Positions 30,532-44,724 of a stretch of DNA of 64,000 nucleotides are shown here, one piece after another. The notes under the pieces were generated by a model. That model worked only from the letters and a program-made list of their open reading frames with translations. It had not been told where the DNA came from and made no database searches. The DNA comes from Akkermansia sp. (GTDB taxonomy: Bacteria > Verrucomicrobiota > Verrucomicrobiia > Verrucomicrobiales > Akkermansiaceae). Where the stretch lies: NCBI GenBank assembly GCA_017558555.1, contig JAFYUJ010000009.1, positions 62,001-126,000 on the forward strand. The letters are read 5' to 3'. The translations under genes were made by a program, and so were the position numbers. Positions within the stretch are counted from its first letter, which is position 1. Each line of letters starts with the position of its first letter.

Positions 30532-31779
30532 TCAATCAGCTATTCTCTGAAGTAGGGCGGCATAAGCGCCATCTGCTTGTTCTTTATGCGGGAGCGCGAG
30601 ATAATCGGCAACCAGGGAAAATTCGGGGTGTTCAGCCAGGAAGGCATCGACAACCTCCCTATCTTCCTGATTATCGATAGAACAGGTGGAATACACCAGG
30701 CGGCCACCGGGACGCACGGCCACTGCGGCTTGTTCCAGAATAAGAGCCTGCAACCCCGCCAAGCGCGCAATTTCTTTTTCCTGCAAACGCCAGCGCGCAT
30801 CCACCCGGCGCTGCAATACGCCGGAATTGCTACAGGGGACATCCAGCAGCACGGCATCGAACGCCCCTTGCCACTTCTCCGGACAGGGTTGCGTCCAGTC
30901 ATGCAATTCTACTGAAACATTCTCTCCCCCCGCTCGCTGCAAGTTTTCCAACAAAGAGGGGAGGCGGTGTTGTTCAGCATCGGTGGCACAAAGATGCACC
31001 TGTCCCATCGTGGCTGCAATAATGGCTGCGGATTTTCCCCCGGGGGCAGCACAGGCATCCAACACACGTTCTCCGGGTTGGGGCGCCAACAGGCGCACAC
31101 AATGACGGGTAGAAGGATCTGCCACATAGACTTGGCCAGCCTTGAGAGCAGCCAGAGGTACCCCGGCACGCAGACGATACCACCCGGGCAAATCCGCCAA
31201 AGGCTCAGCATCTGCCAACGGAGAATCCATGGGGCGCAGGGGATTCAGGCGAGCATAGACTGGTGGTGGTTGCACGTTCCATGCAAGCAAGGCCGCCGTA
31301 TCCTCTTTGCCAAAATCGCGAATCCAACGCTTCACCAGCCAATCCGGGGTAGAATAACGCATACCAAGCGAGAGCATCTTACGCTCGCCCAGGATTTCTT
31401 CGCGACGCCGAAGCGCATTGCGTAACATGGCGTTGACGACCCCGCGTAAACGCGATGGTGCCAAAGATACGTTTTCAGACACCACAGCATACTCTGCATG
31501 ATTGAGTACAAGAAGCTCGCACAACCCGATGATGACCAGCCAATGGCCCTTATCTTCCAGCTGAGCGGAACGCAACTGCTTACGGATATGGCAAAGCCAG
31601 CGCAGATTACGCAGCACCCCCAGCACAATGGATTGCAACAAGGCTCGGTCTGCGGAGCTCATGCCAACAGACTCGCGGGCAATGAGTGTTTCTGCAAATA
31701 TACCGCCTTTATCCCAGCGCATCAAGCAACGCAGGGCAGCAGCCCGTGGGGAAAGTGGCTTTTGAGAAGAAGTAGTCAT
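30532..31779 (-). CDS. rsmB: 16S rRNA m5C methyltransferase RsmB-like
   Basis: This 415-residue protein has an N-terminal NusB-like RNA-binding domain (about 1-135) and a C-terminal SAM-dependent Rossmann methyltransferase. The SAM motif VLDACAAPGGKS is followed by LLDVPCSNSGVLQRR, with the motif IV Cys, and the catalytic Cys in YSTCSIDNQED. RsmB methylates C967 of 16S rRNA in E. coli. It is the last gene of a six-gene minus-strand operon and overlaps the upstream gene by 4 bp. Confidence 0.9.
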   Translation of the reverse strand: MTTSSQKPLSPRAAALRCLMRWDKGGIFAETLIARESVGMSSADRALLQSIVLGVLRNLRWLCHIRKQLRSAQLEDKGHWLVIIGLCELLVLNHAEYAVVSENVSLAPSRLRGVVNAMLRNALRRREEILGERKMLSLGMRYSTPDWLVKRWIRDFGKEDTAALLAWNVQPPPVYARLNPLRPMDSPLADAEPLADLPGWYRLRAGVPLAALKAGQVYVADPSTRHCVRLLAPQPGERVLDACAAPGGKSAAIIAATMGQVHLCATDAEQHRLPSLLENLQRAGGENVSVELHDWTQPCPEKWQGAFDAVLLDVPCSNSGVLQRRVDARWRLQEKEIARLAGLQALILEQAAVAVRPGGRLVYSTCSIDNQEDREVVDAFLAEHPEFSLVADYLALPHKEQADGAYAALLQRIAD

Positions 31780-32552
31780 GACTCAGAAGGTAGAATGAGA
31801 GCTTGTTGCAATGGTAAATTTCCATTCCACGCCAGGATGGAGCCTTTTTCGGCCGTTTCATCTGCCGGGGTGAACAATACACGGCCACCGGCACGTTCAA
31901 GAATCAATCCGGCTGCGGCAAAATCCCACACATTGATGCGGTTTTCTATATAAGCATCAAACCGTCCATCAGCGATGTAGCAGAGCGTGAGCGCAGCCGT
32001 GCCAAGAATGCGGATTTTGCGTACTTGCGAGGAAATGTGAGCAAAGCGGCGCAGACCGGTTGTCCCCGAGCCATCATGTGTCCCGTGGCCTACAAAGACG
32101 ATGGCTTCCTCCATCCGGGAGCGAGATGAAACATGGATTTCTCTGCCATTGCAGGTGGCAACACCATCTGCCAGTGCGCAATAACATTCATCCAGCATGG
32201 GATTATAAACGCACCCCAACACCACTTTGCCCTGAACACGCAACGCGATGCTCACGCAAAACAGAGGGAGTCCATAAAAATAATTCACGGTGCCATCGAT
32301 GGGGTCGATAATCCACTCGGGCTGAGATTCCGACTCCGTGCGACCTTCTTCCCCAAGCACGGCGTAATCAGGGAAATGAAGGCTGAGTTCTGCTTCAATG
32401 AGTTGCTGAGTCTCCTTATCCAGGCGCAGTTTGATATCATGCGCCAAAGCTTCATCCACAGGCAAAGGCGAACGAAAATGATGAAGCAGAAATCTGCCTG
32501 CACAACGTGCAGCTTGCTCAGCCGCGCGCAACTGGAGAGAATACGTGCTCAT
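31776..32552 (-). CDS. Inositol monophosphatase family protein (SuhB-like)
   Basis: This 258-residue Mg-dependent phosphatase carries the metal-binding motifs GEEG, WIIDPIDGTVNY and WDFAAAGLI. Family members hydrolyse inositol phosphates, or act on rRNA transcription as SuhB does; the exact substrate cannot be decided. It overlaps the PBP gene and the rsmB gene by 4 bp each, so it is tightly coupled. Confidence 0.9.
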   Translation of the reverse strand: MSTYSLQLRAAEQAARCAGRFLLHHFRSPLPVDEALAHDIKLRLDKETQQLIEAELSLHFPDYAVLGEEGRTESESQPEWIIDPIDGTVNYFYGLPLFCVSIALRVQGKVVLGCVYNPMLDECYCALADGVATCNGREIHVSSRSRMEEAIVFVGHGTHDGSGTTGLRRFAHISSQVRKIRILGTAALTLCYIADGRFDAYIENRINVWDFAAAGLILERAGGRVLFTPADETAEKGSILAWNGNLPLQQALILPSES

Positions 32553-34444
32553 GACTGCGGCTTGAGAGATGCCGGTTTCTCCACTTTTTCAGCCCGCAAA
32601 ATAGCACGAGCCCGGGCATGCACCTCTCGCGCCAAATTCAAAGAAGCACGAGACATGAGACGACGAAGCTCCGGAGAGGCAGCCGACGCAGATTTGATAT
32701 CATCAAACCCCATCCACACAAAGACAGTCACGCCACGTTCATTACAAACCATAGACCACTGGCCATGATTCTGCGGCAAAGTCTCATTCATGAACAAGGG
32801 GACCCCCTCGGAATAAACAAACGGAGAAAGGCGAGAGACGGCAACAGCGCTCTGTCGGCAGATGTATTCAGACGCTTTTTCAGGTTCGTAAGAATATAGG
32901 GCTTTCTGTCCGTTGCTCCATACAGTCTGCACGATATTTAACTTGTAGTCACGGCCCTGATTCTGGACATCAAAAAGCAGACGAGCCATATCCAACAGCT
33001 TCATCGAGTACAAACCATTGTACAAATCGCGTTCACGCTCTCGGGGCGGCAATGAAATCCCCAGGTGGAGCGAATCAAAGAAAGAGCGTACTACCTCGTA
33101 GCCCAGGCGCAAGCCGGTCACTTCAGTATCGCGCGCAACTATATGAAATTCATCTCCACCCGGCAAACAGGCACAGCAGAACAGAAGCGGAGCCATGGCG
33201 CGTCCGGGTTTCACACTATGTTGCCAGCGATCGATACCATCATATACGCTGCGTCCACCGACTACCCCCAATACATTTCCTTTTTTGTTGCGGCGCGTAT
33301 CCACCACGAGTACACAAGCTTGTAACACCCCGGTGAAATCATTGTCATTGCCCCTCACCTTCAACCCGGCAGGTCTTTTGACGGTTGCGAAGTATTTGCT
33401 TTGCGCTTCGGCCTCTTCTCCCAGCAACTCACCCCACTCAGCCGGGAATGCCCCTGCTTTTTCCACAGCGCAAAGGGCTCGTTCCGTTGCTTGCTCCAAA
33501 TATTGCTGAATGTCCAAGTTGAGATTGGACACAACAGAGAGTCCACGGGTGTTATCCCCCAAATCAGCGCGAATGGCCTCCAACTCCATACCGGCCCACA
33601 TAGCGGCGTACGAGCTGTTGACTCGGGCTGTTTTTTCGATAGGGGCCAAATGAATTGGAGCACTCAGGGCAGTATCATGCTGCTTGGGCGTAATCATTTC
33701 CAACTCCAACATGCGCGCCAAGGTCTCTTTTTTTACCCCCATCGCATTGTCCATACTGCGGCGGGGGTTACACAGCGAGGGTGCTCGCACCAACCCGGCC
33801 AGGGTTGCAGATTCAACCAAATCCAAATCGCTGACGGGTTTACCAAAATAGTGGCGAGCCGCAGCTCCAATTCCATAGCAGTTTTGCCCAAAATAGATGC
33901 GATTAAGATACTGAGCAAAAATGGTCTGTTTATCCACGTGCCGTTCTATTCGCTGTGCGAGCATAGCCTCCAGCAGTTTTCTGTCCAGCGTCTTACCCCC
34001 CAGTTCAAACACATGTCGGGTGAGCTGCATCGTAATGGTTGATGCGCCCTGCTCATAGCTCATTGACAGCAGATTTTTCACTAATGAACGAACAACAGAG
34101 CTGTATACCACACCGCCATGCTCAAAGAACGATTCATCCTCACGCGCGACAAAGGCATCCACCAAGTGCTTGGGGAATTGATTCCACGGTACATACTCAC
34201 TCTCCGAACCGGATAAATCTGCCACCGGACGATTTTGTGCATCGTACAGCAAACTGACCCCACAACCGGAAGATACGCGAGATACATCATACTGCAATGC
34301 GCGGCAGGTGTATACCACCATCACCGCCACACCAGCAAACAGTAAAGCAATGAACACCCCCGCAAGCACCAACATCTTCTTTTGCCCGATAGTGAGCAAA
34401 GAATACCAGCGCTTGCGGCGATTGGCTGACACGGAGTGAAACAT
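32549..34444 (-). CDS. Class A PBP-like glycosyltransferase with degenerate transpeptidase domain
   Basis: This 631-residue protein has one N-terminal membrane anchor (about 23-46). A GT51 peptidoglycan glycosyltransferase domain follows, with catalytic E102 in REDESFFEHGG, then GASTITMQLTR and RKLLEAMLAQRIE. The C-terminal half still aligns with the transpeptidase domain (VLVVDTRRN, VGGRSVYDGIDRWQ). However, the PGSxFKP motif reads PGRAMAP: the nucleophile is R415 and the Lys is A418. The KTGT triad is also missing. It should polymerise glycan strands but not cross-link (inference). I chose the ATG at 34444, just after the TPR gene's stop. Confidence 0.85.
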   Translation of the reverse strand: MFHSVSANRRKRWYSLLTIGQKKMLVLAGVFIALLFAGVAVMVVYTCRALQYDVSRVSSGCGVSLLYDAQNRPVADLSGSESEYVPWNQFPKHLVDAFVAREDESFFEHGGVVYSSVVRSLVKNLLSMSYEQGASTITMQLTRHVFELGGKTLDRKLLEAMLAQRIERHVDKQTIFAQYLNRIYFGQNCYGIGAAARHYFGKPVSDLDLVESATLAGLVRAPSLCNPRRSMDNAMGVKKETLARMLELEMITPKQHDTALSAPIHLAPIEKTARVNSSYAAMWAGMELEAIRADLGDNTRGLSVVSNLNLDIQQYLEQATERALCAVEKAGAFPAEWGELLGEEAEAQSKYFATVKRPAGLKVRGNDNDFTGVLQACVLVVDTRRNKKGNVLGVVGGRSVYDGIDRWQHSVKPGRAMAPLLFCCACLPGGDEFHIVARDTEVTGLRLGYEVVRSFFDSLHLGISLPPRERERDLYNGLYSMKLLDMARLLFDVQNQGRDYKLNIVQTVWSNGQKALYSYEPEKASEYICRQSAVAVSRLSPFVYSEGVPLFMNETLPQNHGQWSMVCNERGVTVFVWMGFDDIKSASAASPELRRLMSRASLNLAREVHARARAILRAEKVEKPASLKPQS

Positions 34445-34458
34445 GAAAAACAGCAGAC

Positions 34459-36930
34459 TTACTGATTCTTGTTGCTGGCATTCATGAGCAGCAGCACGTT
34501 GGCCGGAGGTACCCAACCGGGAAATTCCGTGCGCAAATTCTCTTCGTACTGCACGGCCTCTCCAGCTTTATCACTAAGCTTCAAGGCGCTTACGATTTTA
34601 TATAAAGCAATGGGTTTAAGTTCCTTATCGCTCACCACGTTGGCAGTTCGGCCATAGTACTTGGCGGCCTCTGCATAGTTACCCTCTACGTAATAGGCAT
34701 CACCCAGAGCAATGAAGACAGAGAACTTGATGGGCCCATCAATACCCAAAGCTATGGCATCTTCACACAGTTTGCGCGCCTCGGCAGCGCGATTCAACCC
34801 CACCAGCAACTGAGACATATCGCGCATGCCTTCTGCCTTGCGGTAAGGTTGCTGTTCCATTTGGACATAGTGCTCAGCGGCTTCCAAACCACGCTGATAC
34901 TGGCGCAGCTCCAGTCGGGCGCGAGCAAGCGTTTTCCACACGAGAGGTTCAACCTTGGGGCGCTCCAGCTCTGCTCCATCGGGTGCTGTGTATTTTTCGC
35001 GAGGTTCGCGAGGCAACGCCTCTGACAGATACTTATCAGCATCCAGATAATTGCGATTCTGGAAACACATCCATCCGCACCAGCGGAGAATGGCTGCGGG
35101 CAAGGCATTGTAGGAGGCAGGGTTGCTGCTCTGCAAGGTGATGAGGGCTTCTCGCAATTTCTCTGCATCTTGCAATTTGAAATAACACTGCACCAAACTC
35201 AAATCCACCAACGAGCCATAACGCTCAGCATTCAGTGTTCGGGCTTCCTGGAAATGAGGTATGGCCTTTGCCGGCTCCGCCTCATACAGAGCACGAGCGA
35301 TGTAGTAATGAGCTTCGGCGATAGCCGCGGGCTTCACTCGGGTACCACATGCAATAAGCCCCTCATAGTATGACACCATACGCTTAGGATCAGACTGGGC
35401 GCAGGCCTGGGCCGCACGCTGCCAACATACAGGAGCTGCTTCAGATGTTGGGAACTCTTTGATGACTCGATCAAAATCAGCCAAGGCCGGTCCGATTTTA
35501 TTCTGTTTCATCAAACAAGCCCCGCGCAATGCCAGAGCCTCCGGCAAGCGCTGATTTTGCTTGTACGTATCAATAAAGTGATTGAGGGTAGGCAATGGAT
35601 CGTACGCATCCCCCTGAGAGGCACACCATGCCTTCTTGTACTCCGCATCCGGGCGTACAGATTCCGGCAAATGTTCAAAGTTAATAGCATCAAACTGACG
35701 CGCCGCTTCTGCAATATCAGCCAACATCATGCGGTCTGCATACATGAGGCGAACTAAATCATTGCAGGGGAGAGAAGATGTTGGCTTGCCGGCAGCAGCA
35801 TAGGTGCTGAGGTATTTCTGAGCCATAGCAAAGAAATTGGTACTACGCAGCTGTTGGGCGCAAATAAGGTGTCTGTATGCGGCGTCTGCTGCCACTTTGG
35901 TATCCGGCTGTGCTTTTTCCACCAAGTCAAACCACTCCGCTGCGGCATCATACCTCTTGAGTTCCATGTATGATTGACCGACAATCAGCGCGCGGCGAGC
36001 CTCCTTTGCAGAGTCTTCCAGCTGGGTGTAGCTGGTGGTCACTTGCTTCACCACACCTTCATAGTCCTTGTTTTTGTATAGAGTAATCAGGCTCTCCATC
36101 TGGGCTTCACCTGCATATTTCTCCATACCGGGCATCTGAGCTAACTTGGAGTAATGCTGCTGGGCCTCATTGGTCTTCCCAAGACGAGATGCCAAACGCG
36201 CAGCCTGAAGGGTGGCCGTACCCTGCATGCGCACATCCAAATCAGGCATGGAAATCAAGCGCAGGAAAAAGGCGTATGCCTCTGCATCTTTGCCATCTTC
36301 CGTCTTCATCTGGGCGAGGGCCATCACACCTGCATGCACGAGCGCCGGCTGCACATTCTGCAACACGAGAAGACGGCGGAAACTGGACTCGGCCTCATCG
36401 CGACGCCCCATCTGAAGCTGGGTGCGAGCAATACGATATGTTGCATCTGTCAGCAAGTCATCGCGTTTGGTCTCTCGCACGGTGATTTGGTAGAATCCCA
36501 AGGCCTTATCCCAAAGATGGCGGTCGAAAGCCAATGTGCCCAGCTTATAGGCAGCAGCAGCAGCATATTCACCTTTTTTCGTATTAGCCAATGTAGCCAA
36601 CACCTTGTTGGAGGCCGATTCGTCCCCGGATTCAGCCAGGCAAACTGCCTGAAGATACAAGGCTTTTGTCACATTGGAGGATTGCGGAAATTTTTTGACA
36701 AAATCACCAAAAAGAGCTGCGGCTCGCTGTAATGAAGCCCTGCGGGATGCAGGGTCCGCGCTGGCACCACGAGACTGAGCATACAATTGCTCTGCGATGG
36801 CATACGAATCAGCTTCCTGATTAATCTGCAAAGCCTCATCGTCACTATTATTCTCCTGAGCAAGGGCAGAGGGCAACGCCACACCGCCCATCAAAAGCAC
36901 ACACGGTACAAGATTTTTCATGTTGGTCAC
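34459..36930 (-). CDS. Exported TPR-repeat protein
   Basis: This 823-residue protein has a signal peptide (ending SALAQE, about residue 25), so it is probably periplasmic. It consists almost entirely of tetratricopeptide-type helical repeats, for example AALFGDFVKKFPQSS, ADFDRVIKEFPTS and YVEGNYAEAAKYY. In position it replaces the YbgF/TolB-type partners that accompany ExbB/TolQ sets. It starts at a GTG that overlaps the exbD stop (an ATG lies three codons later). Confidence 0.85.
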   Translation of the reverse strand: MTNMKNLVPCVLLMGGVALPSALAQENNSDDEALQINQEADSYAIAEQLYAQSRGASADPASRRASLQRAAALFGDFVKKFPQSSNVTKALYLQAVCLAESGDESASNKVLATLANTKKGEYAAAAAYKLGTLAFDRHLWDKALGFYQITVRETKRDDLLTDATYRIARTQLQMGRRDEAESSFRRLLVLQNVQPALVHAGVMALAQMKTEDGKDAEAYAFFLRLISMPDLDVRMQGTATLQAARLASRLGKTNEAQQHYSKLAQMPGMEKYAGEAQMESLITLYKNKDYEGVVKQVTTSYTQLEDSAKEARRALIVGQSYMELKRYDAAAEWFDLVEKAQPDTKVAADAAYRHLICAQQLRSTNFFAMAQKYLSTYAAAGKPTSSLPCNDLVRLMYADRMMLADIAEAARQFDAINFEHLPESVRPDAEYKKAWCASQGDAYDPLPTLNHFIDTYKQNQRLPEALALRGACLMKQNKIGPALADFDRVIKEFPTSEAAPVCWQRAAQACAQSDPKRMVSYYEGLIACGTRVKPAAIAEAHYYIARALYEAEPAKAIPHFQEARTLNAERYGSLVDLSLVQCYFKLQDAEKLREALITLQSSNPASYNALPAAILRWCGWMCFQNRNYLDADKYLSEALPREPREKYTAPDGAELERPKVEPLVWKTLARARLELRQYQRGLEAAEHYVQMEQQPYRKAEGMRDMSQLLVGLNRAAEARKLCEDAIALGIDGPIKFSVFIALGDAYYVEGNYAEAAKYYGRTANVVSDKELKPIALYKIVSALKLSDKAGEAVQYEENLRTEFPGWVPPANVLLLMNASNKNQ

Positions 36931-37358
36931 TTAGATTCCTTGGGCATCTGCTTGGAGAAGGAGACATTCCACACGCCGGCCTGTGAGCAGGTGGAAATCA
37001 CATCTGCCATACGCTGCCAGCTCATCTCTGCATCCCCTCGGATACGTACAGGCTGATTGGGATTCACGGCTACCATGCGTTTAAGCATGTCTGAAAGTTT
37101 TTCGCGAGTAAACTTCTCGCGGTCAATGGTTATGACCAATTCATCATTCTCTTCACGTGCATTGATGATGATTTCATCAATGGCACGAGAGGCCTCTTCA
37201 GTACTCTTGGGAGCTGTCGGCACCTTCACTTTCAAGTCCTGCTCATTGAGGATGAACTTCTGCGTCACAACAAAGAAGATAAGCAAGAGGAACACCACGT
37301 CAAGCATGGGTGCCAGCTGGAAACCTATAGGTTCAGGTACCTTGGTATTAAATTTCAT
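36927..37358 (-). CDS. exbD: ExbD/TolR-family protein
   Basis: This 143-residue energy-transducing subunit has one N-terminal membrane segment containing the essential ion-coupling Asp, D20 (APMLDVVFLLLIFF). A periplasmic domain follows, with KVPTAPKS and a typical VTIDREKFTREKL segment. It works with the ExbB-type channel encoded 22 bp upstream. It is the intact counterpart of the divergent copy at 42218-42646. Confidence 0.92.
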   Translation of the reverse strand: MKFNTKVPEPIGFQLAPMLDVVFLLLIFFVVTQKFILNEQDLKVKVPTAPKSTEEASRAIDEIIINAREENDELVITIDREKFTREKLSDMLKRMVAVNPNQPVRIRGDAEMSWQRMADVISTCSQAGVWNVSFSKQMPKESK

Positions 37359-37380
37359 GGGGCGACGTGCCGGTTATCCA

Positions 37381-38139
37381 TCAATAATCATCGTCATCCA
37401 TCACCTCGCGGGTGTTGCCTCCGCGCAGGTTGACATTGCCCAAACGCTGCTCGCGATCCATCTGCACAGAAATGACAGACAAGATATGAGTCACCGCAAC
37501 TTCCATATCAGTGATACGCTTCTGGATGCGATTACGGAAGATGACGTAAGCAAGCATGCTGGGGATAGCTAACACCAAGCCACCGGCCGTGGTAATCATA
37601 GCCTCAGAAATACCACTGGCCATCTGCATCTGTTTCACACCTTCGAAATTGCCGGCAGCCATTTCCATGAACGTTTTCATCATGCCAATCACCGTACCAA
37701 GCAGACCTATCATGGGAGCAATCGCGCCAATATCGGAGAGCCAATTGATTTGGCGAGTGAGAATGCTGGATTGGCGCGTACCTTCTGCAGCAGCCACTTC
37801 ACGAATCTCATCGATGTTGGCGCGAGGATTACGCTGCATGAACATCACAATGACATGCACCGTACGGGCAAAGCTGGAACCATCACGATCACACAAGCTG
37901 AGCAACCCGGCATAATCCTTGCGGCGGATGTATGACTCAACGGAAATCACCATGCGATCCGGCAATACGGCACCTGTGCGGGTGGTCCACAAGCACACGA
38001 AGATAACCATCATAGCCACAATGGAAAGCACAAGCAATCCCCACATGAGAGGACCGCCTTTGTCAAAAAGAGAAAGGGCATCCACACCGGCACTGGTGGC
38101 CGATGCACTCAAGTCTGCGAATATGAAAGCTGACATCAT
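37381..38139 (-). CDS. exbB: ExbB/TolQ/MotA-family channel protein
   Basis: This 252-residue protein has three membrane segments (near residues 23-45, 125-150 and 165-190). The conserved IAPMIGLLGTVIGM and ITTAGGLVLAIP stretches carry the channel threonines. With ExbD it forms a proton-driven motor that energises envelope proteins. The start at 38139 (or the adjacent ATG at 38136) is fixed by a consensus promoter whose -10 box ends 9 nt upstream. It is first in the exbB-exbD-TPR-PBP-suhB-rsmB operon. Confidence 0.92.
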   Translation of the reverse strand: MMSAFIFADLSASATSAGVDALSLFDKGGPLMWGLLVLSIVAMMVIFVCLWTTRTGAVLPDRMVISVESYIRRKDYAGLLSLCDRDGSSFARTVHVIVMFMQRNPRANIDEIREVAAAEGTRQSSILTRQINWLSDIGAIAPMIGLLGTVIGMMKTFMEMAAGNFEGVKQMQMASGISEAMITTAGGLVLAIPSMLAYVIFRNRIQKRITDMEVAVTHILSVISVQMDREQRLGNVNLRGGNTREVMDDDDY

Positions 38140-38148
38140 TACGCGCGC

Positions 38149-38177
38149 ATTATAGAGCAAAGGAAGCATTTATTCAA
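38149..38177 (-). promoter_or_regulatory. Consensus promoter of exbB-to-rsmB operon
   Basis: Minus strand: TTGAAT (38172-38177), 17-bp spacer, perfect TATAAT (38149-38154), 9 nt before the ATG at 38139. An upstream ATG at 38169 lies before the -10 and is excluded. Confidence 0.75.
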
Positions 38178-38212
38178 GCCAGATGGATGTCTGCACGCGA
38201 TTTTTCTGTCCC

Positions 38213-38935
38213 TCAAGAGGAAGGCATCTGTGTCATGGTGTCATCCAAAGGGAAATTGTATGTATAGCAGGGGTGGGCATCTGTCAGGAAATAATGCCAC
38301 CATTCCTTGCTGTAATTGCGAAATCCGACTTTTTGCATCGCATCCCGCAAGATAAGCCTGTTTTTCTGTTGTTCTGCAGAAATCAGAGAAGTTTCCGTAG
38401 CAGAGGAAACATCCAGCAAATCGTGATGCCCGCCCATATCGACCTCGCTGCCATCATTCAAATGCACAAGAGTAATATCAACGGCAATCCCCCAGCTATG
38501 TTCCGAAACATCGCCAATGTACTTACCATCATAGATGCCTTGCTTTGTAATGTTCGGGTAAAATTTTGCCTTCATGCGGTCATCTTTTGTGCGAGACCAA
38601 GCCCGGAAATCTTTCATCGCCACAGCCGGGCGGTACGCATCCCACACCAGGAGGGCATAACCTTTTTTTTGTAGCAACTCCGAAGCACAAGCCAAAGCCT
38701 CAGCAGCATCACGACGGAGTATTGCGCGTTTCCCACCGGTATACCCCGCTATGGGGCGACCCACAAAATTATCATGGCCCGTATACTTCAAGTCCACTCG
38801 TACCAGAGGCGCAACGGCATCCACATAACACCACCCCACGGGCAAGGTCTTGGGGATTGGTTGCTGCGGTACCCCTGCACATTGCACCAATGCGCACAAC
38901 ATCAGAACAGACAGACATTTCAAGCACTTATTCAT
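38213..38935 (-). CDS. ddpX: D-Ala-D-Ala dipeptidase (VanX/DdpX family)
   Basis: This 240-residue zinc dipeptidase has a signal peptide (about 1-20). The ligands H146 and D153 lie in SEHSWGIAVD, catalytic E211 and ligand H214 in KEWWHY, and a conserved Arg in DAYRP. It would hydrolyse D-alanyl-D-alanine in the periplasm, more likely for wall turnover or nutrient recovery than for vancomycin resistance, because no vanH/vanA genes are present. I chose the ATG at 38935; an upstream TTG-type extension is possible. It is the last gene of the serS-to-ddpX minus-strand run. Confidence 0.88.
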   Translation of the reverse strand: MNKCLKCLSVLMLCALVQCAGVPQQPIPKTLPVGWCYVDAVAPLVRVDLKYTGHDNFVGRPIAGYTGGKRAILRRDAAEALACASELLQKKGYALLVWDAYRPAVAMKDFRAWSRTKDDRMKAKFYPNITKQGIYDGKYIGDVSEHSWGIAVDITLVHLNDGSEVDMGGHHDLLDVSSATETSLISAEQQKNRLILRDAMQKVGFRNYSKEWWHYFLTDAHPCYTYNFPLDDTMTQMPSS

Positions 38936-38952
38936 TTCAACAATATTGACAT

Positions 38953-40209
38953 TCAACGCGAAAGGCGCATGATACTCCTTTCCACCGTCATGGAATACGC
39001 CTCTTCCACAGACGTCTTCTTGCGGGCATGGCCGGCCCCCCAGGAATCGCTGTAAATAATCGTTTCTTCATCCGGATTATACCCAATAATCAAGCGCATG
39101 TGCCCACCACGGGCTTGCGGGATTCCCTGCTCTTCAAACAAGCCAAGGACAACACACCAAAGCACCGGTACCCCTTCATCGATGCATTTTTTTACATCGG
39201 CCATCCACTTCTTGACCTTGGAGGCATTTCGCGTACGTGCAGCGCGCAAGATTTCACCATCAACGTTGCCCATATAGATATCACTGATTGCAATGGCACT
39301 GGCTTTTTGTTTTTTTGCTTCTTTATTGTACAAAGCCACCATTTCCGCGAAAGTGCCATCTTCCATGGTTTTCACCCGGAAATGGAAAGCCTTACCTAAA
39401 TCCTGCAGAGCGGCACGCATCTGGGGCATCGTGGTGCCACCGTTGCCACTCTGGCTCTGACACAGAGCTGCCATAGCATGCTGGTCTACACCATCCATAC
39501 CATAATAAGCAAAAACACGTGCCGCTGTAGCCGGAACGCAATACCCCTTTTCGCCCTGGTCGACCATTGGTATGTTTTTAATCCATACGGAACCATCCGA
39601 CTCGCGCGACACATTTGCTTTGAGCGAAACCCGGCGGGCAACATCCGAGGCTCCACCTTTCTCCAAAGATTTGCCAATGGTCAGGCGAATGAACTCCGAA
39701 GCAAATGTCTTTCCCCTGCCGGTTGAGGACGATTCCAGAAGCCACGTACCACAACGCTCGGTTTCCCACACCTCGGTCTGCCCCCTGACGCCGGTATCGA
39801 GCTTATCCATTTTGCGGGACTTCCCCTCGACGGGCAACAGATTATTGAGCGTTTGTTCCATCTTTTCAAGCAGGGTTTTAAACTGCTCCCGGGTCACATT
39901 CCCATCATCGCCTTTGTTGTATACGATAATTTCTACGCGGTTCAGTTTTTTCTCATCATCCCAACGCAAAACAACATCGCCATGAGAAAAATCACCCAAC
40001 TCGAAATCTTTTTGCCGTGGCAAGCGTATCGTCTCAGCATCAATGCGAGAGAAATACAGCGAGGGCGGAAGCTCGGCAAACACCTCAGGCACTGTCTTTT
40101 CCCACGTGGCCGGATTAGCCAAATCATCCAGGAAAGCAGCATTACTCATACCGGATGCGCCACACAGCAACGCAAAGATGAAAAGTAGCGGACGAACAAT
40201 CACAGACAT
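38953..40209 (-). CDS. Exported papain-like (C39-type) peptidase, copy B
   Basis: This 418-residue protein has a signal peptide (about 1-25, ending SNAAF). A ~190-residue N-terminal domain of unknown fold follows, then a C39_2-like cysteine peptidase domain. Catalytic residues appear intact: oxyanion Q218 (VDQG), C224 in GYCVPATAARVFAYYG, H370 in GGHMRLIIGYN and D388 in YSDSWG. Role and substrate are unknown; C39-type domains cut double-glycine leaders or wall proteins. It is a tandem paralogue of the next gene, 40 bp away. Confidence 0.82.
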   Translation of the reverse strand: MSVIVRPLLFIFALLCGASGMSNAAFLDDLANPATWEKTVPEVFAELPPSLYFSRIDAETIRLPRQKDFELGDFSHGDVVLRWDDEKKLNRVEIIVYNKGDDGNVTREQFKTLLEKMEQTLNNLLPVEGKSRKMDKLDTGVRGQTEVWETERCGTWLLESSSTGRGKTFASEFIRLTIGKSLEKGGASDVARRVSLKANVSRESDGSVWIKNIPMVDQGEKGYCVPATAARVFAYYGMDGVDQHAMAALCQSQSGNGGTTMPQMRAALQDLGKAFHFRVKTMEDGTFAEMVALYNKEAKKQKASAIAISDIYMGNVDGEILRAARTRNASKVKKWMADVKKCIDEGVPVLWCVVLGLFEEQGIPQARGGHMRLIIGYNPDEETIIYSDSWGAGHARKKTSVEEAYSMTVERSIMRLSR

Positions 40210-40249
40210 ATGCAAATCTTGAAGTTGAACCATCCGGGGAAGGCTTCAT

Positions 40250-41509
40250 TCAATGAGCCAGGCGAATCACGTTGCGCTCCAATGACATGGAGTAAGCATC
40301 CTTCCATGGTAACTCCTTTCGAATATGCTTAGCCCCCCAGGAGTCGCTGTAAATGATGGTCTTATTTTGAAGATTATATCCTACAATAAGTCGTGTATGA
40401 AAGCCATCCATCTGCTGGCTGTTTTTCTCCTCAAAAACGCCTACCTTCACATCCCAAATGATGGGTTCACCGGCATCAATGCATTTTTTCACCTCTGCCA
40501 TCCATTTTTTGGCTTTAGCAGCATTGCGAGTACGCGCTGCTCGCAGCACATCAGCATCAAACAGCTTGGAATCCGCTATACTTCCCCGTGCAGGAGAAAG
40601 TGTCTCCACTTGCTGTTTTTTGGCTTCTTGGTTATACAGCGTCACCATTTCTTCCATGGTGCAATCCTGCGCCGTTTTAAGAGCATAATTGTACTTCTTG
40701 CTCAGGCCCTGCAACGCATTGCGCATCTGGGTCATCGTGGTGCCACCGCCTTTGCTGCCGGATTGACAGAGAGCCGCTATCACATGCTGATCCAGGCTAT
40801 CCATGCCATAGTAGGCAAAAACACGAGCCACCGTAGCCGGCACACAATATCCGCTTCCCTTGGCAGACTCCACCATAGGCACATTCTTAATCCACACGGT
40901 GCCATCTGCCTCCCTGGCAACATTTTCCTTGAGAGACTCACGGCTGACCGCATCTTCTGCGCCCCCTTTCCCGGCTTCCGTTCCAATCGTGAGTCGTATA
41001 AACTCAGAGGTAAACTGTTTGCCCTTTCCGGAGTGCAGCGAATCCAGCACCCAGACGCCGCACTTCTCTGTTTGCCATGCTTTTGTACGGCATTTTACGC
41101 CTGCGACTCTCGAATCACCCTTCCGCAGCTGACCTTCCACGGCCAACTTTTCATTGAGAAAAGTCTCGGCATCCAAAATCTTCTTTTTAAATTCAGCCGA
41201 CTCAAGTTCGCCATCTACCCCTTTGCTGTACAGCATTAGCTCCACCTGAGTCAACTTGCGAGACTCATTCCATTTCAAAATCACGTCACCATGCTCAAAA
41301 TCAGCCACCTTAAACTCAGGCTGCAAAGGTATGCGCATTGAAGATGCGTCTATACGAATGAATGAAGCGCCTTTCGGCATGGTCATAAAGAGTTCGTCCA
41401 CACTTTGCTCCCAAAGAGCCGGTGTAGCCAAATCATCAATGAAAGCAGCACTGCACACCAGCGGTGAACAACATACAAATGAAACAAATTGAAGGAAGCC
41501 GGAAGACAT
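40250..41509 (-). CDS. Exported papain-like (C39-type) peptidase, copy A
   Basis: This 419-residue paralogue of copy B has the same layout: signal peptide (about 1-21), N-terminal domain, then peptidase domain. C222 (GYCVPATVARVFAYYG), H371 (HTRLIVGYN) and D389 (YSDSWG) are conserved. The oxyanion Gln seen in copy B is missing, and the segment reads VESAKGSGYC with a one-residue insertion. The two copies share extended blocks (WMAEVKKCID, AFYYGMD-type), which indicates tandem duplication followed by divergence. Confidence 0.82.
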   Translation of the reverse strand: MSSGFLQFVSFVCCSPLVCSAAFIDDLATPALWEQSVDELFMTMPKGASFIRIDASSMRIPLQPEFKVADFEHGDVILKWNESRKLTQVELMLYSKGVDGELESAEFKKKILDAETFLNEKLAVEGQLRKGDSRVAGVKCRTKAWQTEKCGVWVLDSLHSGKGKQFTSEFIRLTIGTEAGKGGAEDAVSRESLKENVAREADGTVWIKNVPMVESAKGSGYCVPATVARVFAYYGMDSLDQHVIAALCQSGSKGGGTTMTQMRNALQGLSKKYNYALKTAQDCTMEEMVTLYNQEAKKQQVETLSPARGSIADSKLFDADVLRAARTRNAAKAKKWMAEVKKCIDAGEPIIWDVKVGVFEEKNSQQMDGFHTRLIVGYNLQNKTIIYSDSWGAKHIRKELPWKDAYSMSLERNVIRLAH

Positions 41510-41529
41510 ATAAAGGGTCGTGTTTCTGA

Positions 41530-41748
41530 TTATCTGTTACGAGCCATGCAATGAGGGCATACCGCATCTGGATCCGTGCGTAAAAAGCGATATCCGCAGA
41601 TTCGGCAGGTAATGCGCACCCTGCTGCGCATTCTTCGGCGCCATTTCGCTACCAGCTTTACCGGAATAAATACTGCCGAAAGCAACGCAAATCCGGCAAA
41701 CACCAGAAATATCAGAAATTCATGCGGGGTAAACGTAAGCAAACTCAT
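41530..41748 (-). CDS. Membrane microprotein with zinc ribbon
   Basis: This 72-residue protein has one membrane segment (about 10-33). A basic stretch follows (KWRRRMRSRVR), then a two-knuckle zinc ribbon, CRICGYRF and CPHC. The ribbon should be cytoplasmic. The family is not recognised. It is 2 bp after the upstream gene and 20 bp before the C39-type copy A, so it belongs to the cluster. Confidence 0.68.
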   Translation of the reverse strand: MSLLTFTPHEFLIFLVFAGFALLSAVFIPVKLVAKWRRRMRSRVRITCRICGYRFLRTDPDAVCPHCMARNR

Positions 41749-41750
41749 GA

Positions 41751-42218
41751 TTACTGTTTCCCCCTTTCTTCCGATTCTTCAACCGTATGGGTCTCTGCTG
41801 CATCTTGTGCTTGTGTTTGCAGGGGCGGCAACTCCATTAATATCTCCGAATTGAGCACAGCAGAATCCGGCGCAGGAGAATAGATGCGCGGAGAGGACAA
41901 TGGCAGCAGGCCCACTGGTTTCACCCAGGATAATGTGGCAGTAGCCACCGCCGCTTCCCTGGCGGGATCCAATGAGGCAGGCAAGCGCAAGGGCAAAGGA
42001 CTGCGTTGATGAATCTGAAACTTCAGAATGGCATCATCCCGGTAATACACGTTCCCTTCTCCCTTGGGACGCAACGGTGGCGGAGACACAACATTTACCA
42101 AAAGCATGATCCCGCCCATCAATAATGCTGAAAGCACCATGAACAACGGCATGCAGCCCGGCATCGGGCGGCTATGTAAAGAGTGATAAATCAGGCTATG
42201 TTCTTTATCCGATTTCAT
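41751..42218 (-). CDS. TonB-sized anchored hypothetical protein
   Basis: I do not recognise this 155-residue protein. It has a cytoplasmic N-terminus, one membrane segment (about 22-45, LFMVLSALLMGGIMLLVNVV), then a Pro-rich periplasmic region (SPPPLRPKG, later LPLSSPRIYSPAP) and an acidic tail. Size, topology and position directly after exbD2 resemble TonB, but no TonB C-terminal domain is visible. The start (ATG at 42218) overlaps the exbD2 stop. Confidence 0.65.
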   Translation of the reverse strand: MKSDKEHSLIYHSLHSRPMPGCMPLFMVLSALLMGGIMLLVNVVSPPPLRPKGEGNVYYRDDAILKFQIHQRSPLPLRLPASLDPAREAAVATATLSWVKPVGLLPLSSPRIYSPAPDSAVLNSEILMELPPLQTQAQDAAETHTVEESEERGKQ

Positions 42219-42646
42219 CAATTCAACGCCGGGCTTCCGGCATAGGTGCATGTAAATCCGTGAGCGAGCACCATGTCGGCTAAACGCTGCATGGTTCCGA
42301 CTGATACAGCTTCATCACATACCAAGACCACCGTCACTCGATTGGGGGTTGGGCAATCCCAGGTCTTGAGCACTTGTTCCACCCCATTCAAACCATCTTT
42401 GATTTCCTTCGCCTCGATGAAAATACGCGGCACATCTCCCGGAGTCACCGTGATGATGTGGGAGTTGGAGCGGTCATACGAGCCCATCACAAAATGCGTC
42501 GCGGCAGAGCGCACGTTCGCACCATATCGAGGTAAACGATGATGATGCAGCAACACGCAAATACAAAGCAACACAAAAAGGTTGAGCAAGGCAATCACCA
42601 CAATATGAAAGCCATTCCCCTTCAGGCTGGTACGCACGCGTCTCAT
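42218..42646 (-). CDS. Divergent ExbD-like protein lacking the membrane Asp
   Basis: This 142-residue protein has ExbD topology: a short cytoplasmic N-terminus, one membrane segment (about 13-34) and a periplasmic domain with the ExbD-like pattern VVLVCDEAVSVGTMQRLADM. The membrane segment (FHIVVIALLNLFVLLCICVL) holds no Asp or Glu, and N22 sits near the position of the ion-coupling Asp of ExbD (D20 in the other copy). It follows exbB2 by 24 bp. Confidence 0.75.
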   Translation of the reverse strand: MRRVRTSLKGNGFHIVVIALLNLFVLLCICVLLHHHRLPRYGANVRSAATHFVMGSYDRSNSHIITVTPGDVPRIFIEAKEIKDGLNGVEQVLKTWDCPTPNRVTVVLVCDEAVSVGTMQRLADMVLAHGFTCTYAGSPALN

Positions 42647-42670
42647 AGTTCTGTTCTATTCAGCGACAGG

Positions 42671-43390
42671 TCAGATTCCGGCAGATTCTTCTTCCTGCCC
42701 AGAAGGAGCGGACTCCATACTGCACATACCCGAGCGGCACGTCCCCTTCCTGGCAGGCTTGCTCTCCTCTTCTTCCTTGCTTACGCGAGCATCACAGATA
42801 ATATGCACGCATTCCAGGCCGGCGCGCTCCACGTTGTTGACGATTTTGCGAGCGCGCGATGCCAAGTACATGTAGAACAGGTAAGCCGGGATGGCCAAAG
42901 CGATACCGGATGCAGACAGCAGGAGAGAACGCTGCAATGTCGACACAATTTCGGGCATGGCAGCAGCACCATCCGTAATCCCCGGCTGCTCATAGAATGC
43001 AACCAGGGAAAGGATGGTTCCCAGTAGCCCCAGCAAGGGCATCACGGTTGCACTGACCTGCAAGCAGCGGATGTTGCGCTCAATGCGGTAAACCTCCAAC
43101 TCCGTAGCCTCCAAGGCAATGTCCCTCAGCTCTTTACGAGCCAATTTCGGACGCGACAGCACAGCTTCCACCACACGAGCCATAGGCCCGGGCAGGATGC
43201 GAGCCTCATGCAGCGCCTCATCGTACTGTCCGCTGCGGAGCAGCGCGGAAAGGCCGCGCAGGAAGTCCCCGGAGTTGATATTGATTCGGTGGAAATAGAA
43301 CAAACGCTCAGCCACCGCAGCCAATGCCAAAACGGCAAAGAACGAGATGAGCCAGAACATGGGACCCATTGTTGCAATCATTTCACTCAT
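42671..43390 (-). CDS. Second ExbB/TolQ-family protein
   Basis: This 239-residue protein has three membrane segments and the family blocks MPLLGLLGTILSLVAF and SASGIALAIPAYLFY. The Thr of the last segment in most ExbB proteins (TTAGG in the first copy) is Ser here. The C-terminal ~35 residues are charged, with two Cys (GTCRSGMC). It lies 47 bp after serS with no clear promoter between, so it is probably read through from serS. Confidence 0.88.
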   Translation of the reverse strand: MSEMIATMGPMFWLISFFAVLALAAVAERLFYFHRININSGDFLRGLSALLRSGQYDEALHEARILPGPMARVVEAVLSRPKLARKELRDIALEATELEVYRIERNIRCLQVSATVMPLLGLLGTILSLVAFYEQPGITDGAAAMPEIVSTLQRSLLLSASGIALAIPAYLFYMYLASRARKIVNNVERAGLECVHIICDARVSKEEEESKPARKGTCRSGMCSMESAPSGQEEESAGI

Positions 43391-43437: not shown

Positions 43438-44724
43438 TTATTTAACGGGTACTGTGATAGAGGACGCGCCGAAGTAAGGCACGAGAGCCTCGGGGATGCG
43501 TACGGAGCCATCCGGCTGCTGGCATTGCTCAAGCAGAGCCACATAGAGACGCGGCAGAGCCGTACCGGAACCATTGAGCGTGTAAGGCGTGCGAATCTTG
43601 CCATCAGCATCCTTGTAGCGCAGCTTCATGCGGCGGGCCTGGTAATCCGTGAAGCAAGAGCAGCTGGACACCTCCAGATACTTGCCCTGCCCCGGAGCCC
43701 ACACTTCAATATCGTATGTTTTGGCAGAGGAGAAGCCCACATCGCCCGTGCAAAGTTCAATCACGCGATAGTGCAAGCCCAGTTTTTGCAGGATGCTCTC
43801 TGCGTGGGAGGTGAGGGCCTCCAGCTGTTCAAAGCCTTCCTCAGGGCGGCAAATTTCCACAAGCTCCACCTTATCAAACTGGTGCACGCGAATCATGCCC
43901 TTATTCTCACGGCCGGCAGAACCGGCTTCGCGGCGGAAACAGGGGGTATATGCCGTCATCTTGACGGGCAAATCACTTTCACGCAGAATCTGATCGCGGC
44001 ACAGGTTAGTCACGGGCACTTCTGCGGTGGGCACCAGGAACATGCTGTTGCCTTCCAGGCCGTACATATCTTCCTCGAACTTGGGCAACTGACCGGTACC
44101 ATACATGCACTCACGCTTCACGATGAAGGGAACCCCCACTTCCTGGTAGCCATTTTCCTGCGTCTGCGTATCAAGCAAGAAATTGATGAGCGCGCGCTCC
44201 AAACGGGCACCCAGGCCGCGATACACAATGAAACCGGAACCGGAAATGCGGGCGGCATCTTCAAAGTTGAGCAAACCAAGGTTCGTGGCGATTTCCACAT
44301 GGTCCCTGGGGTTTTCAATTTCCGGCTTGGTTCCCCATTGGCGGAGCTCAGGGTTGGCAGAATCATCTGCGCCCACGGGAGCGCCGTCGTGCGGCATGTT
44401 GGGGATGGAGAGAAGAAGCTGTTCCTGCTCCTCGGCAGCAGCAGAAGCCACGGCATCGAGCTCGCGAATCTTATCACCCACTTCGCTCATACGCTTCTTG
44501 AGCGTCTCGGCCTCCTCACGGCGGCCTTCCTTCATCATCTGCCCAATCAGTTTGGAAGAACTGTTGCGTTCCTGGGAAAGAGCTTGCTTCTCAGTCTCTG
44601 CGTTGCGGCGCTTCACATCACATTCCAGCACCTTGTCTACAAGCATCCAATGGTCACCACCACGCAAGCGTACTCGCTCTTTTACATACTCAGGATTTTC
44701 TCTGACAACTCGGATATCTAGCAT
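43438..44724 (-). CDS. serS: Seryl-tRNA synthetase
   Basis: This 428-residue class II aminoacyl-tRNA synthetase has the N-terminal coiled-coil arm (about 30-100). Motif 2 (TPCFRREAGSAGRENKGMIRVHQF) and motif 3 (NGSGTALPRLYVALLEQ) follow. It is the first gene of the minus-strand run that leads into the second exbB/exbD cluster. Its promoter lies 9 nt upstream. Confidence 0.96.
   Translation of the reverse strand: MLDIRVVRENPEYVKERVRLRGGDHWMLVDKVLECDVKRRNAETEKQALSQERNSSSKLIGQMMKEGRREEAETLKKRMSEVGDKIRELDAVASAAAEEQEQLLLSIPNMPHDGAPVGADDSANPELRQWGTKPEIENPRDHVEIATNLGLLNFEDAARISGSGFIVYRGLGARLERALINFLLDTQTQENGYQEVGVPFIVKRECMYGTGQLPKFEEDMYGLEGNSMFLVPTAEVPVTNLCRDQILRESDLPVKMTAYTPCFRREAGSAGRENKGMIRVHQFDKVELVEICRPEEGFEQLEALTSHAESILQKLGLHYRVIELCTGDVGFSSAKTYDIEVWAPGQGKYLEVSSCSCFTDYQARRMKLRYKDADGKIRTPYTLNGSGTALPRLYVALLEQCQQPDGSVRIPEALVPYFGASSITVPVK

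Follow-up and report, generated by a model that had tools for sequence, protein, structure and literature searches.

We analysed a 64,000-nucleotide stretch of a draft Akkermansia genome (assembly GCA_017558555.1, contig JAFYUJ010000009.1, positions 62,001 to 126,000; hereafter the window), in which seven genes lie on the minus strand between positions 38213 and 43390. In order, they encode an ExbB (ExbB2), an ExbD (ExbD2), a membrane-anchored partner, a 72-residue zinc-ribbon protein, two exported papain-like peptidases (C39a and C39b), and a VanX-like dipeptidase. The first four, which we call the quartet, are our main subject: they are kept together across most of the order Verrucomicrobiales, and in many lineages their ExbD lacks the membrane aspartate regarded as its proton site. 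The genome is a 2.16-Mb draft whose named close relatives are metagenome-assembled Akkermansia genomes from goat gut. A first-pass annotation, made from the sequence alone, had read the seven genes as one envelope system. All seven open reading frames are present where it placed them and are as tightly packed as it described, the spacing in order from ExbB2 being about 24, −34, 2, 20, 16, and −4 bp. The limits of the interval are arbitrary. Upstream, 47 bp separate ExbB2 from serS (43438..44724, minus strand, as are all genes below), which by synteny precedes the quartet in that part of the genus to which the window belongs; downstream, 43 bp separate VanX from ExbB1, which is followed by ExbD1 and a tetratricopeptide repeat (TPR) protein.

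The first-pass assignments of the ExbBD pair held. ExbB2 (42671..43390, 239 aa) belongs to the MotA/TolQ/ExbB family (PF01618, 3.5e-15), PDB chains of TolQ and ExbB are among its profile matches, and an orthologue or homologue was found in 142 out of 142 genomes of the order that were searched. The Pfam search gave no match for ExbD2 itself (42218..42646, 142 aa). A profile led by the window sequence matches PDB ExbD chains at 2.6e-10. The structural model (predicted local distance difference test [pLDDT] 76) shows the single transmembrane (TM) helix and periplasmic domain of an ExbD, and its top fold matches include TolR and ExbD (Foldseek E 0.005–0.03, probability 1.00). Orthologues from other families, of both the Asp and the Asn type, match PF02472 at 8e-15 to 3e-17. 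Pfam, sequence profile, and fold thus agree that the ExbD2 orthologues are ExbDs. The absence of an acidic membrane residue, also proposed initially, is real: Asn22 (codon AAC, 42581..42583) aligns with Asp25 of Escherichia coli ExbD.

The partner (41751..42251) had been described as a TonB-sized protein without a TonB domain, which is right for the window, where the Pfam search found no match, and wrong for its orthologues. One of these passes the TonB_C cut-off, and the C-terminal domain of a full-length Akkermansia muciniphila partner (locus L277; model pLDDT 64.5 overall and about 78–87 in this domain) has TonB C-terminal domains as its best folds (E about 0.02, probability 0.99–1.00). The partner is therefore TonB-derived. 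The domain is missing in the non-Asp Akkermansia except two genomes (G070 and G142), and the window protein carries the tail motif SAVLNSEILMELPP; a motif like DSAVLDxxxLLxLPP is present in 46 of the 53 truncated partners. The fourth gene (41530..41748) encodes a membrane protein with a zinc-ribbon/rubredoxin-like match under the cut-off and the pairs CRIC..CPHC, in agreement with the first-pass reading. Both CxxC pairs are kept in 145 out of 148 orthologues. A basic stretch lies between the TM segment and the ribbon, which is why we place the ribbon in the cytoplasm. Relatives of the ribbon protein also occur without ExbBD: in family f9, they adjoin ribosomal and guaA-like genes, and the ribbon-only loci L374, L375, L377–L380, and L382 lie beside ribosomal, prs-, or guaA-like genes.

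The quartet is found in the order ExbB-ExbD-partner-ribbon in 136 of the 153 Verrucomicrobiales genomes, and its genes often overlap by 4 bp. It is followed by fabF in 14 out of 16 non-Akkermansia genomes of the window's family and in 26 out of 35 genomes of family f2. Outside the Verrucomicrobiales, a search with the ribbon profile retrieved ExbB-ExbD-ribbon groups at several loci, which belong to further orders and classes of Verrucomicrobiota, where they adjoin fabF or putative guaB- or hisD-like genes (names given from the appearance of the sequences). The arrangement varies in places: one genus of family f4 (G021) has the partner–ribbon pair relocated to another contig, and neither gene was found beside ExbBD in most f3 genomes. 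The literature searched, in which subscription papers were largely outside coverage, yielded nothing relevant on a Verrucomicrobia ExbBD with a zinc ribbon or on a natural ExbD without the aspartate. As an operon of Verrucomicrobiota, the quartet thus seems not to have been described before. The undescribed composition initially claimed for seven genes holds, within the searchable literature, for this smaller conserved core.

The position equivalent to E. coli Asp25 was read at 160 loci, where it is Asn in 95, Asp in 57, Ser in 5, Gly in 2, and Ala in 1. Counted as distinct genomes, 57 have Asp and 96 do not (153 in total). Asp is absent from families f3 and f4, and present in all f2 genomes and in the single f6 genome. 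Family f1 is mixed, and A. muciniphila-like species within the window's genus carry the Asp type. Every f4 genome has Asn (20 out of 20), as do 88% of the non-Asp Akkermansia. Mapped on an ExbB tree of 153 rows, the position changed at least 6 times, 4 of them on well-supported branches, and a denser tree of 80 rows gives 11 changes (at least 6 on such branches); these counts are approximate because both trees were made with quick methods and have long branches. We infer the direction Asp to non-Asp because the readable loci outside the order (L363 and L381) have Asp. As a control, the ExbD paralogues in eight genomes with a non-Asp locus keep Asp in 38 out of 38 aligned hits (a few loci overlap). 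No compensating acid was found within the TM segment of any non-Asp ExbD. Metagenome misassembly is an unlikely source of the Asn, since the isolates Luteolibacter pohnpeiensis, L. marinus, and Haloferula sp. BvORR071 share it. Ratios of nonsynonymous to synonymous substitution rates (dN/dS, by the Nei–Gojobori method, with several pairs saturated) are 0.00–0.15 for close pairs of non-Asp ExbD, the same range as for Asp pairs. They are far below 1 for ExbB, ExbD, and the ribbon protein; the partner is fast evolving.

Published work treats the Asp of ExbD, TolR, and MotB as a conserved and essential proton site, and the His of the TonB SHLS motif as binding the motor (PMC12204202, PMC11658791, PMC9389320). 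The E. coli mutants ExbD(D25N) and TonB(H20A) are inactive (PMC11658791). The change in ExbD2 is the same Asp to Asn at the ion site as in the laboratory mutants MotB D22N and ExbD D25N, and differs from them in being natural, recurrent, and under purifying selection. The TonB-like His of the partner's TM segment is present in all f2 genomes (all of the Asp type) and in f6, and absent in the window, f1, and f4. ExbB residues, numbered by what we take to be the correspondence in an alignment with known TolQ/ExbB, also differ: the equivalent of Glu176 is Arg in the window and acidic in 28 of the 57 Asp genomes and in 2% of the others. By family, loss of the Asp shows a suggestive correlation with loss of the partner His or with change at Glu176, although for both links the independent-pair tests had too few informative pairs. 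Separately, the window's clade has a new acid at the periplasmic end of ExbB2 TM2 (alignment position 148), absent in Asp-type relatives; this position is acidic in 63% of non-Asp genomes and in 0% of Asp genomes.

The quartet shares with the Ton system (ExbB-ExbD-TonB) three homologous components and their gene order, the ExbD fold, the TonB C-terminal domain in partner orthologues, and an S-x3-H pattern in the f2 partner TM segment. It differs by the additional zinc-ribbon membrane protein, the loss of the ExbD Asp in many lineages, the lack of the TM His in f1 and f4, and the loss of the C-terminal domain in the window's clade. A residue thought to carry protons has been lost repeatedly, so the motor may no longer use its usual power source. 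Given this gene order and homology, and residue changes that recur under low dN/dS, we put about even weight on the reading that the quartet of the window's lineage forms a Ton-type complex that the proton gradient no longer drives and that persists as a membrane scaffold or sensor. The core would derive from a 5:2 motor of the Ton type. Uncoupling in the lineage of the window would have come with the Asp to Asn change, the disappearance of the motor-binding His, and the Arg at the Glu176 equivalent, and the outer-membrane domain of the transducer has been swapped for the short conserved tail motif. A non-conducting ExbB pentamer would then surround an ExbD dimer held in a protonated-like state. 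It could retain the TonB-derived partner through its post-TM strand, which in TonB pairs with ExbD, and hold the cytoplasmic zinc-ribbon protein in the same complex, serving as a scaffold or sensor instead of generating force.

Several observations weigh against this reading. Asp to Asn is a single-base change, so that recurrence by itself is weak evidence; it is the later conservation of the Asn that argues for function. The f1 genomes that keep the Asp, including A. muciniphila, lack the partner His, and the link between the two losses is confounded by phylogeny: a test on independent pairs had too few informative pairs and gave no significance. The polar ring of ExbB (equivalents of T148 and T181) stays Thr or Ser in nearly all genomes, which would fit a channel in use. 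This ring, the new acid in TM2, and the other Asp-bearing ExbDs in the genome would also suit a complex that is still proton driven, either because one pentamer holds ExbD2 together with ExbD1 or some other ExbD that has the Asp, or through another relay residue. We consider this unlikely, because ExbB2 and ExbD2 are adjacent in one operon and co-conserved, the ExbD TM segment has no acid elsewhere, and the new ExbB acid is absent from f3 and f4, which have lost the Asp too. The joint loss of the Asp, the His, and the TonB C-terminal domain, the few Ser, Gly, and Ala variants, and the fast evolution of the partner could instead mark the remnant of a Ton system in decay. This is highly improbable given the dN/dS values and motif conservation: the open reading frames are intact in about 150 genomes, selection has held ExbB, ExbD, and the ribbon with its cysteine pairs, the Asn is invariant in f4, and the new tail motif is itself conserved.

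The first-pass proposal of a single seven-gene machine for wall or peptide processing retains almost no credence, and we rejected it on synteny. The genes are tightly packed, and the full string is present in the window's species. Elsewhere, the joined order was found only in the close relative G160 (locus L183), with a single C39, and G153 is consistent with it across a contig break. Complete genomes of the genus have their C39 homologues hundreds of kb away from ExbB2 (in G010, for example, at 1.004 Mb versus 0.701 Mb), and in the other genus members examined they are on different contigs or similarly distant. VanX goes with ExbB1-ExbD1-TPR-GT51 in 8 out of 8 VanX-bearing loci examined in the genus. 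The string of seven genes therefore arose by recent juxtaposition, and the interval is the junction of two operons with a lineage-specific pair of peptidase genes. It is quite unlikely that, in the three-species clade, the two blocks have fused into one long transcript that newly co-regulates C39 and VanX with both ExbBD pairs. In the window, the gaps between serS and TPR reach at most 47 bp, and G160 has the same order; against this, G160 has a gap of about 350 bp between C39 and VanX, adjacency is not function, and the co-regulation is read from gene order.

The two exported papain-like peptidases were recognised correctly: C39a (40250..41509) and C39b (38953..40233) match the C39_2 profile (PF13529) at 2.3e-8 and 5.7e-11 and carry the Cys-His-Asp triad. 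They are 53–54% identical, C39 genes elsewhere are single copies, and the pair is a recent duplication in the window's lineage. Cys, His, and Asp are kept in all homologues with aligned sites. The Gln of the MVDQG motif is conserved in 36 sequences and replaced by Ser in 1, namely C39a; C39b has all four residues intact. C39a has thus diverged, is perhaps impaired, and had no counterpart in the relatives that were checked. In two genus members (loci L119 and L120), additional sequence separates the Cys part of the C39 match from the His part, so that the match is split in two.

VanX (38213..38956) belongs to the second operon, a block (31776–38956) conserved in the genus. It is followed by ExbB1/TolQ-like (37381..38169; PF01618, 3.7e-28), ExbD1/TolR-like with the normal Asp in PMLDVVF (36927..37358; PF02472, 1.8e-23), the TPR protein with a CpoB/YbgF-like match (34459..36930; TIGR02795, 98 bits for a cut-off of 90.1), the GT51 transglycosylase as last wall gene (32549..34516; PF00912, 1.8e-54), and an inositol monophosphatase family gene as its conserved end (31776..32552; PF00459). 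The last two follow TPR in all 8 VanX-bearing loci, and in G010 (L192), another genus member, the block lacks VanX. The proposed D-Ala-D-Ala dipeptidase activity fits the family, Peptidase_M15 (PF01427, 2.1e-39), which is also that of the vancomycin resistance enzyme, and not the NCBIfam VanX equivalog (180.1 bits for a cut-off of 320). The protein differs from that enzyme also in looking exported and in having no vanH or vanA beside its gene; it is probably a lipoprotein, from an ATG at 38935 and a lipobox-like LVQC. No transpeptidase domain was detected in the PBP1-like GT51 protein. In two genus members, ExbD1 and TPR flank a further, diverged ExbD of about 40% identity (L188:2847-3107 and L189:6020-6280), as in the TPR-tolQ-tolR-tolR-vWA loci of the Planctomycetes–Verrucomicrobia–Chlamydiae group (PMC12204202), from which the block differs by the lack of a vWA in the two genes after TPR, the range searched. 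The block shares TolQ/TolR-like genes and a YbgF/CpoB-like TPR with Tol-Pal (TolQ-TolR-CpoB) and differs by VanX and GT51, with no TolB or Pal recognised adjacent. E. coli has a Tol-CpoB-PBP1B link, and by analogy this wall-related ExbBD group is a lead for a similar one, with a possible control of wall synthesis tied to a TolQR-like motor. The wall-processing role first attributed to ExbB2 and ExbD2 finds its counterpart in this neighbouring operon, with its ordinary ExbBD pair and not with theirs.

More broadly, the quartet may represent a natural class of ExbB-ExbD-TonB-derived complexes working without the proton gradient, in which the Asp became Asn many times and was held by selection, the TonB head was replaced by a docking tail, and a zinc ribbon became a constant subunit. 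We propose this tentatively, as somewhat short of an even chance. A phylum-conserved ExbBD operon lacking the Asp, in genomes whose other ExbDs have it, would offer natural uncoupled complexes for study. Close Asp-type relatives, including A. muciniphila, allow direct comparison, which makes it testable whether such complexes serve a role beyond proton-driven force.

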